This document shows, piece after piece, positions 6,565 through 59,332 of a stretch of DNA of 64,000 nucleotides; the stretch's first letter is position 1; the number at the start of each line of letters is the position of its first letter. The notes under the pieces were generated by a model. That model saw only the letters and a list, made by a program, of their open reading frames with translations. It had not been told where the DNA came from and made no database searches. The DNA is taken from assembly GCF_020567425.1 (NCBI RefSeq), contig NZ_JAJCVJ010000002.1, positions 847,068-911,067 of the forward strand, read 5' to 3'. The stretch comes from Salinirubrum litoreum (GTDB lineage Archaea > Halobacteriota > Halobacteria > Halobacteriales > Haloferacaceae). A program made the translations under genes and the position numbers.

Positions 6565-6844
6565 CGACGAGAGGTGAAAGCCCCCGCGCTCTCGACCTGC
6601 CGCGACTTGGTGCGCGCCTCAGTCGGTCGAGCCAGCAAGCTGGCTCTCCCGCCCTGCGGTGCTACCGGCGTCGGGGCAGGGTCGAGAGCGCGGCCCCTTT
6701 CAGTCCCACCCGGTGAAATCTGCGACCCATCGTGCAACACCCGGTGGACCAGTCGCTTTCAGCGCGAGTGCCTACCTGGAACCGTCGGCGTGCCTGAAGC
6801 GGCTACACGCCGCCGAAGTGAGCGAGATGAACTCGCGCCAGCCC
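6565..6844 (+). repeat. Structured repeat element, copy 1
   Basis: A non-coding block of about 280 bases, repeated at 31700-31986 (reverse orientation) and in shortened form at 44235-44297. It begins acgacgagaggtgaaagccccc and contains a long imperfect stem: GAAAG (6576-6580) pairs with CTTTC (6697-6701), and the 14-base arm 6584-6597 pairs perfectly with 6680-6693. Inside lies a perfect 8-bp hairpin (6629-6646, GAGCCAGC-AA-GCTGGCTC). The 3' part holds two CACCCGGTG palindromes and ends in gatgaactcgcgccagccc. No intact reading frame is conserved between copies. It occupies the gap after the G10 methyltransferase gene. Confidence 0.75.
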
Positions 6845-6944
6845 ACCCGACTGGTGAGTCTGCTGTCGGCTCTCGTGGTCGGTCCCTGTCGCAGTCGGGT
6901 TCGCTCGCCGGGACGTTTTTCACCGACCCACCGAACCGGAAGGT

Positions 6945-31699: not shown

Positions 31700-31986
31700 G
31701 GGCTGGCGCGAGTTCATCTCGCGCACTTCGGCGGCGTGAGGCCGCCTCAGGCACGCCGACGGTCACAGGTAGGTCATCGCTGAAAGCGACTGGTCCACCG
31801 GGTGCTACACGATGGGTCGCAGAGTTCACCGGGTGGGACTGAAAGGGGCCGACCTCTCGACTGGTCCCCGACGCCGGTAGCACTGGACTGAACGAGAGCG
31901 CGAGCGAAGCGACGCGCTCTCGTGAAAGAAGCGCGCACCAAGTCGCGGACCATCGAGAGGTCGGGGGCTTTCACCTCTCGTCGTCG
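31700..31986 (-). repeat. Structured repeat element, copy 2
   Basis: Reverse-orientation copy of the element at 6565-6844. Flanking blocks are nearly identical (cagtcccacccggtga, tgcgacccatcgtg, the two CACCCGGTG palindromes, gatgaactcgcgccagccc). The long stem is kept: 31841-31845 with 31968-31972 and a perfect 12-bp arm 31849-31860 with 31953-31964, although two adjacent base pairs differ from copy 1 on both sides. The inner hairpin is unrelated in sequence but is again a perfect stem (31892-31902 with 31913-31923). It follows the stop of the SWIM-protein gene in that gene's direction. Confidence 0.75.
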
Positions 31987-43242: not shown

Positions 43243-43332
43243 ATGAGTCACGCGACGAAGATCGTCCTCGGTACCGTCGGCGTCTCGGCACTGCTCGCGT
43301 TCGCGCTGGTGTTCGGTATCCTCCTCGCCTGA
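43243..43332 (+). CDS. 29-residue single-helix membrane microprotein
   Basis: A complete tiny frame, ATG 43243 to TGA 43332. It has a polar start (M-S-H-A-T-K), one membrane helix of about 20 residues (I-V-L-G-T-V-G-V-S-A-L-L-A-F-A-L-V-F) and almost no tail. A TATA-like gctttaagcg lies 22-32 bases before it, the only such box for this and the next gene, and its stop overlaps the next ATG (TGATG). Those two facts support real translation. Role unknown; such peptides often bind a membrane complex. Confidence 0.7.
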   Translation: MSHATKIVLGTVGVSALLAFALVFGILLA

Positions 43333-44111
43333 TGTTCGAGACGCGGTCGCTCCCGGCGGATCTCGCGGCGGTCCGCGACGAACACGCACCCGACACGCTC
43401 GTCCTCGACGCCGAGGGGGACTTCGAGACGCTCCCCCCGGCGGTCGCAGAGGACCTCGGCCTCGTCGTCGAGTCGCTGGACCCCGCGGTGTACCCGACCG
43501 ACTGGCTCCCGGAGCACACGCCACGACAGCTTCGCCGCTACGCCGGGTCGGACTTCACGATCGGTATGCCCGGCGACGGCACGGTCGTCTGGACCCGCCA
43601 GACCGTCCCGCCGACCGTGATCTGCAAGGCCCGTGCCGAGGGGACGCCCGAGGAGTTCCTCGACTTCCTCATCGCGGAGGCGTTCGTCCAGATCGGCGCG
43701 GACGTGCCGGAGCACTGTCTCCCCTTCTTCGGCGAGCGCTATCGTGAGTTGGCGGCGGTCGGCGACCTCGCTCCCTCCGAGACGTACCAACTCGCAGTCG
43801 CGCTGTTCGAGGCCTGGGTCGGCCTCCAGACCCGTGAGGTGTTTCGTGACTGGCAGGGCCAGCACGACCGGTTGTACGACGCCTGGACGGACGCCGGCAG
43901 TCGCCTGACCGACCGGTTGTCGGACCTCGCGGGGGCGGTCGCACGCGGCGAGATGAGTTTCGTCGCCGCGACCGAGTTCGCCTGTTCTGCGGTGAAACAC
44001 GACCTCGATCTGCCCGCGCCCTTCTCGGCGCTGGACACGCAGGCGTACCGCGATCACGGTGCCGACTACGCGGTTCGCTGGGCCGAGAAGACGTTCGAGA
44101 AACTGGAGTGA
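43332..44111 (+). CDS. Conserved haloarchaeal protein of unknown function (259 aa)
   Basis: A 259-residue acidic cytoplasmic protein. It has an alpha/beta N-terminal half (D-T-L-V-L-D-A-E-G-D-F-E-T-L-P-P) and a helical C-terminal half with C-L-P-F-F-G-E-R-Y near residue 130, and a D-R-L-Y-D-A-W motif. It resembles a haloarchaeal family I recall as DUF7089, without known activity. Translationally coupled to the membrane microprotein upstream. Downstream it runs directly into a composite repeat region. Confidence 0.75.
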   Translation: MFETRSLPADLAAVRDEHAPDTLVLDAEGDFETLPPAVAEDLGLVVESLDPAVYPTDWLPEHTPRQLRRYAGSDFTIGMPGDGTVVWTRQTVPPTVICKARAEGTPEEFLDFLIAEAFVQIGADVPEHCLPFFGERYRELAAVGDLAPSETYQLAVALFEAWVGLQTREVFRDWQGQHDRLYDAWTDAGSRLTDRLSDLAGAVARGEMSFVAATEFACSAVKHDLDLPAPFSALDTQAYRDHGADYAVRWAEKTFEKLE

Positions 44112-44234: not shown

Positions 44235-44297
44235 CGACGACGAGCGGTGAAAGCCCCCAGCCCCGTCCAGTCCCACCCGACTCTGCGACTCATCGTG
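44235..44297 (+). repeat. Structured repeat element, stem-deleted copy 3
   Basis: Matches the head (cgacgacgagcggtgaaagcccccag) and part of the tail (cagtcccaccc, then ctctgcgactcatcgtg) of the element at 6565 and 31700. The roughly 110 bases between them, including the long stem and inner hairpin, are missing. Upstream lies the same kind of gaacgcggtcgagtcggttg sequence seen before the other copies. It follows the stop of the gene at 44111 in the same direction. Confidence 0.65.
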
Positions 44298-44350
44298 TCG
44301 TCACTGGTCGTCACCCGGCGAGTGGTCGAGGATTCGGAACCCGGCAGTCG

Positions 44351-44453
44351 TAGTCGTCCCCACGCCTCCCCGACTGCTGACGAGCGAACTGCGAGGCGGG
44401 TCCTCGCTGTCGCTCGGACACTGCTCGGGTCCGGTCGTCGGCAGATCGCTTCC
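44351..44453 (+). repeat. Second dispersed repeat family, copy A
   Basis: About 100 bases that recur in inverted orientation at 59229-59332. Shared blocks include ccccacgcctccccgactgc, ggtcctcgctgtcgctcg and cagatcgc followed by tcc, with indels between. No protein is encoded in common. Both copies lie in gene-free repeat-rich gaps. Confidence 0.65.
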
Positions 44454-44522
44454 TCGGTTGGCTCCGGTTGCTGTTGTGTGGTCGGGTGACGAGTGTGGCA
44501 CGCGCCCTCACAGAACGTCCGG

Positions 44523-44675
44523 CGCGTGCGAGGAACGCACGCGAGGTCTCCCCGAGAGAACCGAACAGGGCGAGACCGAGGGTCTCGCTGGCAGTCGGCG
44601 CGGCGCGCCGACGACAGAGCGAGAGCGAAGCTCTCGCCAGCAACCGGCGCGGAGCGCCGGTGACGAAGGCTCGTC
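44523..44675. repeat. Array of short perfect hairpins
   Basis: Five perfect 8-bp hairpins stand in a row: 44523-44543 (loop AGGAA), 44570-44588 (loop GAG), 44594-44612 (loop GGC), 44619-44637 (loop GAA) and 44643-44661 (loop GGA), then a 5-bp hairpin at 44662-44675. The last four 8-bp units are each exactly 19 bases long and start 24, 25 and 24 bases apart. Their stem sequences all differ, so the structure and not the sequence is repeated. No gene lies here. Confidence 0.75.
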
Positions 44676-44730
44676 GGAGCGTGCCGCTGACGGTGGCGCC
44701 GCCCGACCACCCCGCGATGTAAAAGCTTAC

Positions 44731-44751
44731 TAACTCAGCGGCTCTGAGTTA
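44731..44751. promoter_or_regulatory. Perfect inverted repeat in the nikR promoter
   Basis: TAACTCAG-N5-CTGAGTTA ends four bases before the nikR ATG and overlaps the position of the transcript start in a leaderless promoter; an A/T-rich aaaagctta (44721-44729) immediately upstream could be the TATA box. The location is that of a repressor operator, probably for NikR itself. Confidence 0.75.
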
Positions 44752-44755
44752 ATAC

Positions 44756-45181
44756 ATGACCGTCGTCAGCGTCTCCATGCCGGAGGAACTGCTCGAACGC
44801 ATCGACACCTTCGCCGACGAACACGGCTACACCGGCCGGAGCGAGGTGATCCGGGAGGCCTCGCGCAACCTGCTCGGCGAGTTCGAGGACAAACGACTGG
44901 AGGAACGCGACCTGATGGGCGTCGTCACGGTCCTGTTCAACTACGAGACGACCGCCGTCGAGGAGCGGATGATGCACCTCCGCCACCAGCACGAACATCT
45001 CGTCGCGTCGAACTTCCACAGCCACGTCGGCGACCACTACTGCATGGAACTGTTCGTCCTCGAAGGGTCACTGGAGGATATCTCCGCGTTCGTCGGCCAG
45101 ATCAGAGCGACGAAAGACACCCTCACCGTCGACTACTCCGTCATCCCGGTCGACGACTTCGGGACGCTCCCCGACGCCTGA
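44756..45181 (+). CDS. nikR: Nickel-responsive regulator NikR
   Basis: A 141-residue ribbon-helix-helix regulator. The N-terminus [16 protein letters not shown] and [12 protein letters not shown] are the DNA-binding fold. The C-terminal metal domain has H-x-H-E-H then H-S-H-V-G-D-H-Y-C, giving the known NikR ligand set (His, His-x-His, Cys). When nickel binds it represses nickel uptake genes. No nickel transporter is adjacent, so its targets lie elsewhere; the peptide/nickel-type permeases at 55.6-57.8 kb are possible but unproven. Confidence 0.95.
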
Positions 45182-59228: not shown

Positions 59229-59332
59229 GGACGCGATCTGGTGGCGACCGGAACCGTGCCGTGTCCGAGCGACAGCGAGGACCTGCTCGCGGTCCGGGTC
59301 GCCGGCAGTCGGGGAGGCGTGGGGAGTACGAG
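59229..59332 (-). repeat. Second dispersed repeat family, copy B
   Basis: Reverse-strand match to 44351-44453, with the shared blocks ccccacgcctccccgactgc, ggtcctcgctgtcgctcg and cagatcgc. It has several small indels relative to copy A. It sits between two tandem repeat arrays, in a gap of about 590 bases without a gene. Confidence 0.65.

Follow-up and report, generated by a model that had tools for sequence, protein, structure and literature searches.

Twin-hairpin modules in a modular intergenic repeat family of Halobacteria that probably folds at the RNA level

The intergenic space of haloarchaea is usually regarded as empty. Elsewhere, the intergenic BOX element of Streptococcus pneumoniae is built of modules, with hairpin units in varying number between conserved ends, and it folds at the RNA level. 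Haloquadratum walsbyi carries PATEs/SMRs, which are short, multi-copy, palindromic, transposase-free mobile repeats that are often nested; the PATEs are related to the ends of IS605-type transposons, and the terminal-only forms are 52 bp long (PMC3119063). REPINs are hairpin doublets thought to move as a unit (PMC3116915), and the REP survey within the REP/BIME/REPIN literature (PMC3116915, PMC3733652) has a coverage that excludes haloarchaea. A halite metatranscriptome contains unnamed conserved intergenic RNAs of Halobacteria (PMC7002113). Here we analysed a stretch of 64,000 nt from Salinirubrum litoreum (called the window), in which an array of small hairpins is made of two tandem twin-hairpin modules on one copy of a modular intergenic repeat family. 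The family is dispersed, and it is conserved by compensatory changes. None of the closest described systems (PATEs/SMRs, REPINs, BOX) has the same defining features.

The twin-hairpin unit consists of a hairpin, a 5-nt linker and a second hairpin, 49 nt in all. It resembles the PATEs in being haloarchaeal, short, multi-copy, palindromic and without a transposase, and the 52-bp PATE is close to it in size (PMC3119063). The module has near-terminal palindromes and no terminal inverted repeat, and it is too short to code. The PATE ends are IS605-type-related, whereas no ends at the Y1 genes examined matched the module; the covarying stems, class-wide core and G.T/A.C strand bias of the present family are not reported for PATEs in the portion of PMC3119063 available. 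REP, BIME and REPIN sequences are likewise intergenic palindromic repeats in clusters, some of them hairpin doublets (PMC3116915, PMC3733652). The twin module differs from them in that its consensus has no GTAG or CGTC tag by the palindrome, that the surroundings of RAYT/Y1 genes in its own genome and four Halorubrum genomes do not contain it, and that its two hairpins are not inverted copies, with stems and linkers that differ. The likeness to BOX lies in the conserved outer parts and the variable number of inner modules, and it is a working likeness, not homology; sequence and host are unrelated, and the haloarchaeal repeat has two module types, nested modules and TATA-like boxes on both sides. 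With the ncRNA classes of Rfam the repeat shares compensatory stem changes, invariant purine-rich single-stranded stretches and a wobble strand bias, but the number of exact cores, up to 145 in a genome, is far above that of usual RNA genes. No Rfam family matches it. A CRISPR array was rejected, as the linkers of the repeat are conserved and the stems vary, the reverse of CRISPR, and the weak matches to Rfam CRISPR-DR20 are far below the cut-off. No description of the haloarchaeal repeat was found in the literature searched (palindromic repeats, structured RNAs, core strings), of which subscription papers mostly lay outside our reach. We regard it as a structured modular intergenic repeat, BIME/BOX/PATE-like and probably RNA-level.

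The window sequence contains four perfect hairpins, each with an 8-bp stem and a 3-nt loop: GCGAGACC-GAG-GGTCTCGC (hairpin 1, 44570-44588), GTCGGCGC-GGC-GCGCCGAC (hairpin 2, 44594-44612), GCGAGAGC-GAA-GCTCTCGC (hairpin 3, 44619-44637) and ACCGGCGC-GGA-GCGCCGGT (hairpin 4, 44643-44661). They are preceded by an 8-bp hairpin with the 5-nt loop AGGAA (44523-44543), which marks the leader-array junction and differs among other copies. All five had been listed, and correctly described, in the initial annotation. The 5-bp hairpin that it saw after them is also there; it is better read as a 5-nt loop closed by a 7-bp stem that contains one mismatch (hairpin 5, GTCGGAG-CGTGC-CGCTGAC, 44673-44691, plus strand). 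In an alignment of 19 copies, hairpin 5 is perfect elsewhere (GTCAGAG-CTTGC-CTCTGAC, GGGAGAG-CTTGG-CTCTCCC, GCGAGAG-CGTGC-CTCTCGC). The first twin-hairpin module spans 44565-44613 on the plus strand and reads ACAGG-(hairpin 1)-TGGCA-(hairpin 2)-G; the second, on the same strand, spans 44614-44662 and reads ACAGA-(hairpin 3)-CAGCA-(hairpin 4)-G. Covariance model R1, the E-values of which are rough, matched the first at G000:C2:891631-891685 (E 3.6e-18) and the second at G000:C2:891680-891734 (E 2.5e-19). The two modules form a 49-nt direct repeat (D1) with 78% identity, and the differences between the copies are mostly paired, compensatory stem changes together with loop changes. This contradicts the earlier argument that, because all stems differ in sequence, unit duplication cannot account for the regularity. 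Across the 64 kb of the window, a stem of exactly 8 bp closes a 3-nt loop in nine hairpins, compared with about 4 expected from dinucleotide shuffles, and four of the nine fall inside 92 nt. Against such shuffles, the array folds with a z of -4.2 as RNA and -4.4 as DNA.

The twin modules are optional parts of a larger modular intergenic repeat, the core of which is GGGACTSAAAGGGGC...GGGGCTTT (the 3' part is also found as GGGGCTTTSAC). With the core-motif strand taken as sense, the window copy is on the minus strand at 44246-44696 (approximately 450 nt), its ends being set from copy boundaries and the core motif. It lies in a gap of 644 nt between a DUF7089 gene (43332-44111, plus strand, Pfam PF23363) and nikR (44756-45181, plus strand, RHH_1 and NikR_C in Pfam). 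Copies found by blastn in the same genome cover 44254-44696, for example locus L051 with 81.7% over 426 nt. The core of the window copy is minimal and slightly degenerate, GGGACTGGACGGGGC-T-GGGGGCTTTCACC (44246-44274, minus strand), with 2 mismatches to GGGACTSAAAGGGGC at 44260-44274; the minimal form elsewhere is 28 nt, GGGACTGAAAGGGGCCGGGGGCTTTCAC. A type B leader (44275-44482, minus strand) contains GCGATCTGC, GTCGGGGAGGCGTGGGGACGAC and CGCCGGGTGACGACCAGTGACGACACGATG, and the same leader type is seen 5' of the core in L056, L058, L062, L067, L071, L075, L082 and L086. The array is oriented opposite to its degenerate core. Two leader types, A and B, exist among the cores of this genome. Type A leaders belong to two other family copies in the window, one at 31704-31975 (plus strand, exact core at 31835-31849) and one at 6571-6845 (minus strand, exact core at 6693-6707), and a leader fragment at 59229-59325 (minus strand) matches 44357-44453 at 84.7%. 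Depending on module content, core lengths in the genome are 28, 42, 126-148 or 184-337 nt, ranging from a 28-nt hairpin to branched forms. The closing stem of the core varies by compensatory change (CGGCGTCTCGA/TCGAGACGCCG, CGCGCTCTCGA/TCGAGAGCGCG, CGACCGCTCGA/TCGAGCGGTCG and others). Of the 242 Halobacteria genomes, 150 contain the exact core, with up to 145 copies each; they represent 46 of the 74 genera, and the reversed-pattern control was near zero. In many copies, e.g. L067, L086 and L083, degenerate tandem repeats of approximately 25 nt (CGACCGATTCGACCGAGTTGTCT...) come directly after the 3' end of the element.

The genome of S. litoreum measures 4.06 Mb and is the only one of its genus in our genome collection. 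Blast found 49 matches to the array in it, 13 of them near full length with 83-98% identity, and the covariance model identified at least 71 twin modules, so the array is not the single special locus for which it had been taken. Within 844 kb sampled around repeat copies, and hence enriched for units, there are 82 twin-hairpin units, compared with 1.7 in shuffled sequence. These numbers and the window counts rule out a chance origin of the array, and the comparison with shuffled DNA suggested in the initial annotation thus came out in favour of the array. The same 844 kb holds 44 clusters of short hairpins, most of which have centre spacings of 24 and 25 nt with alternating stem types; this stereotyped spacing is seen in about 40 arrays of the genome. 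The consensus of the twin module is GACAG-(8-bp stem, 3-nt loop)-NNGCA-(8-bp stem, 3-nt loop)-GAC. In an alignment of 30 rows, 98.3% of the stem cells pair, and 45 double changes were counted, compared with 15 in shuffles (none of 500 as high) and far fewer in slid versions. The twin module thus has the covariation beyond shuffled and slid controls by which structured RNAs are judged. The loop is found in the states GAA, TTC, GGA, TCC, GAG, ACA, GTA and TAC, and among distinct units GNA loops number 50 on the module's own strand and the complement TNC 14. The GCGAAGC mini-hairpin to which attention had been drawn is present, but it is only one state of this variable loop, in which GNA is favoured on the module strand. 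The covariance model of the module matched 157 of 194 sampled Halobacteria genomes and 1 of 69 genomes from the other classes of the phylum, with the candidates scored in each genome limited in number; the named matches are mainly from Halorubrum. The view of the initial annotation that structure matters over sequence is borne out by the covarying stems and by the 24/25-nt architecture, which recurs across the class. A second module type, also in the S. litoreum genome (e.g. L054, L063, L074, L089), consists of recurrent paired hairpins with 29-nt spacing and CGAGAGACGCC and CGAGAGAGC stems.

The element of Halorubrum is approximately 250 nt long and extends from GGTGGCGCG to GGGGCTTTGG. In 1.2 Mb of a Halorubrum chromosome, we found 79 core matches with one mismatch allowed, and none was inside a gene predicted by our own simple predictor, on which all gene calls here are based. 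The core matches are over-represented in convergent gaps, which hold 28 of the 79 and 19% of intergenic bases (p 0.0005), and under-represented in divergent gaps, which hold 8 of them and 24% of the bases (p 0.002). In tandem gaps, core orientation does not follow the direction of the genes (20 same, 23 opposite). A bias by replication strand and an even spacing were considered as well, and no clear pattern was seen in the 1.2 Mb (spacing CV 0.74; strands mixed). An alignment of 30 Halorubrum paralogues has compensatory changes in 25 of the 59 predicted pairs, and little or no variation in the unpaired stretches GAGGGA, GACGAGGCTGGGGAGG, GGGACTCAAAGGGGCAG and CTGGGGCTTTGG. The sense strand of alignment A1 has four invariant G-tracts (CTGGGGAGG, GGGACT, AAAGGGGC and CTGGGGCTTT), for which a G-quadruplex in the KCl-rich cytoplasm would be possible. 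A TATA-like box lies within 45 nt upstream in 41 of 53 copies (6% in the background), which as a sign of transcription is suggestive only. Its usual distance to the 5' motif is 15-17 nt, and transcription that began about 27 nt downstream would therefore initiate within the first stem. Another TATA-like box lies within 70 nt downstream in 49 of 59 copies (10% in the background), most often 32 nt past the 3' end. The two boxes have the same direction and near-fixed distances (Halorubrum G176, L183-L242, e.g. L203:5188-5434), and the pair may represent a promoter, a duplicated target site or a portion of a tandemly repeated unit.

At one orthologous locus, 3' of one gene, the element is at the same place in most Halorubrum species examined, with stems and modules changed; L152 has only 7 nt at this site. 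Two Halorubrum genomes differ at this locus by exactly one 49-nt twin module, which is GAC-flanked, present in L145 and absent from L146, with the flanking gene approximately 95% identical; this could be either a gain or a loss. The stems of the window's second module are identical in sequence to those of a module inserted at a Halorubrum locus, and the two modules are told apart by their loops and linker. Module positions vary: some modules adjoin the leader, like those of the window, some cap the core stem, and others occupy an internal loop at AAGC|AC, for which repeat copies with and without the twin module are available for comparison. Modules in other families cap a longer stem, e.g. CTGGCC...GGCCAG, an arrangement that suggests a three-way junction. 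In L269 (G116) and L272 (G097), CCTTTTTCGCCC comes after a stem capped by the twin module, and in L272 this stem lies shortly past a stop codon; the capped stem looks like a terminator in that genus.

The stems of the core show a strand bias. In 80 distinct Halorubrum elements, the core-carrying strand has 25 G.T and 1 A.C oppositions, and the core stems of the S. litoreum genome have 14 and 7. Double-stranded DNA or a cruciform would give equal numbers of G.T and A.C, and it is therefore probably a single strand, in the simplest case RNA, that keeps the fold; the copies share ancestry, so the nominal probability of this test overstates the case. The strand-specific G.U tolerance used to recognize structured RNA is thus a feature of the core stems and not of the twin modules, which have no strand asymmetry (about five G.T and about four A.C in alignment A2). 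The lack of a wobble bias in the modules is consistent with their being optional inserts. Antisense and sense fold equally significantly (mean z -5.8 and -5.7 against dinucleotide shuffles), so the strand is indicated by the wobble asymmetry only. A strand preference by energy was rejected: the raw MFE favoured the sense strand in 52 of 52, and this was gone when dinucleotide shuffles were used for comparison (12 of 24). Single-stranded DNA, RNA and sites for a protein had all been offered at the outset as ways in which the array might matter. For the host repeat, folding of a single strand, probably RNA, is favoured; for the twin modules themselves no strand is preferred.

The intergenic placement, the excess between convergent genes and the indifference to orientation in tandem gaps (20 and 23) are also what would be expected of DNA-level sites, i.e. 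cruciforms or DNA hairpins to which an architectural protein binds, with a BIME-like function in the nucleoid or in supercoiling, and DNA folding of the perfect stems is favourable (z -4.4). Both strands count equally in such DNA, however, and 25 G.T to 1 A.C on one strand would be unexpected, as would the long invariant unpaired stretches; we consider this explanation improbable. More improbable still is a local regulatory element of nikR, a leader or an operator, to which one might be led by the end of the repeat approximately 60 nt upstream of the nikR start. A perfect palindrome just 5' of nikR, TAACTCAG-CGGCT-CTGAGTTA (44731-44751), is outside the repeat and is a probable, putative NikR operator, and relatives have a similar sequence beside the start of nikR. 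The array stops before this palindrome, the nikR upstream regions of relatives (160 nt each) contain the operator-like sequence and no array, and repeat copies adjoin unrelated genes throughout the genome. As a general explanation, regulation specific to nikR is refuted by these array-free regions and by the copies at unrelated genes.

The main rival to an RNA-level repeat is a mobile mini-element of single-stranded DNA (REPIN/PATE type), with the twin hairpin as a terminal palindrome pair that would be recognized by a Y1 (HUH) transposase and inserted on the 3' side of a short RRC/GAC site, with no long duplication of the target. A unit of 49 nt that has two palindromes but lacks a terminal inverted repeat would suit such an element, as would the GNA loops on one strand, the tandem stacking, and the contexts of the module, which adjoins RRC in several of them (AAC, AGC, GAC) and ends in GAC; terminal-only PATEs of 52 bp are known in Haloquadratum (PMC3119063). 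We nevertheless hold this to be unlikely. There are just 3 Y1 transposase matches in the S. litoreum genome and 1-2 in four Halorubrum genomes, and no module-like hairpins were found near the Y1_Tnp genes of these five genomes, in a search confined to Y1 genes. The two hairpins of the unit are not inverted copies of one REP, and the G.T/A.C asymmetry of the host repeat is better explained by RNA. Somewhat less likely again are old structured loci without any dedicated mobility, the hairpins of which would be shuffled between copies by recombination, slippage and template switching. The elements at the same locus in many Halorubrum species agree with such a history, and so do the 3-nt GAC repeat that flanks the gain or loss in L145/L146 and the loops found inverted (GAA/TTC, GTA/TAC), as inversion mediated by inverted repeats would give; against it, modules with nearly identical stems occur in different genera and in several distinct contexts, and the fixed 8-bp stems and linkers exceed what slippage would predict. 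A viral origin was also considered and rejected, the core pattern being absent from IMG/VR and the Halorubrum element from phage records. Six records of haloarchaeal plasmids have matches, mostly partial or weak.

On balance, we lean towards a class-wide modular structured repeat in which a single strand, most likely RNA, folds and the twin hairpins serve as plug-in stem-loops. The repeat would be copied into a folding single strand, most likely RNA from the strand that carries GGGACTSAAAGGGGC. The twin hairpins would be plugged in at junctions of the fold, as in a three-way junction, and could thus be gained, lost or stacked without breaking it. Modules and elements would spread as non-autonomous repeats and be filtered away from genes and promoters. 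We infer transcription of the repeat, a role for its TATA-like boxes, mobility of the modules and a possible role in the cell. The folded product would most likely belong either to a family of independent genes for small RNAs or to a selfish repeat with RNA structure. A tentative extension, which we put forward with less confidence, is that the repeat represents an undescribed class-wide structured-RNA family of Halobacteria, with up to well over 100 loci per genome, that grows by mobile self-folding twin-hairpin domains; the plug-ins would move from copy to copy and from genus to genus, with the core fold and the invariant G-rich stretches kept.

One modular family thus occupies many long gaps of many haloarchaeal genomes, with its covarying fold kept. 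If RNA, it would rank with the largest families of structured RNA in any archaeon and be a test case for domain gain in RNA folds. If selfish DNA, it would be a haloarchaeal counterpart of BIMEs and BOX elements. Either way, its loci are defined targets for RNA-seq, probing and deletion. In another family of the order (G114, G144, G177 and G054), the cores are arranged head to head in inverted pairs, 46-47 nt apart, as though they belonged to a palindromic element.
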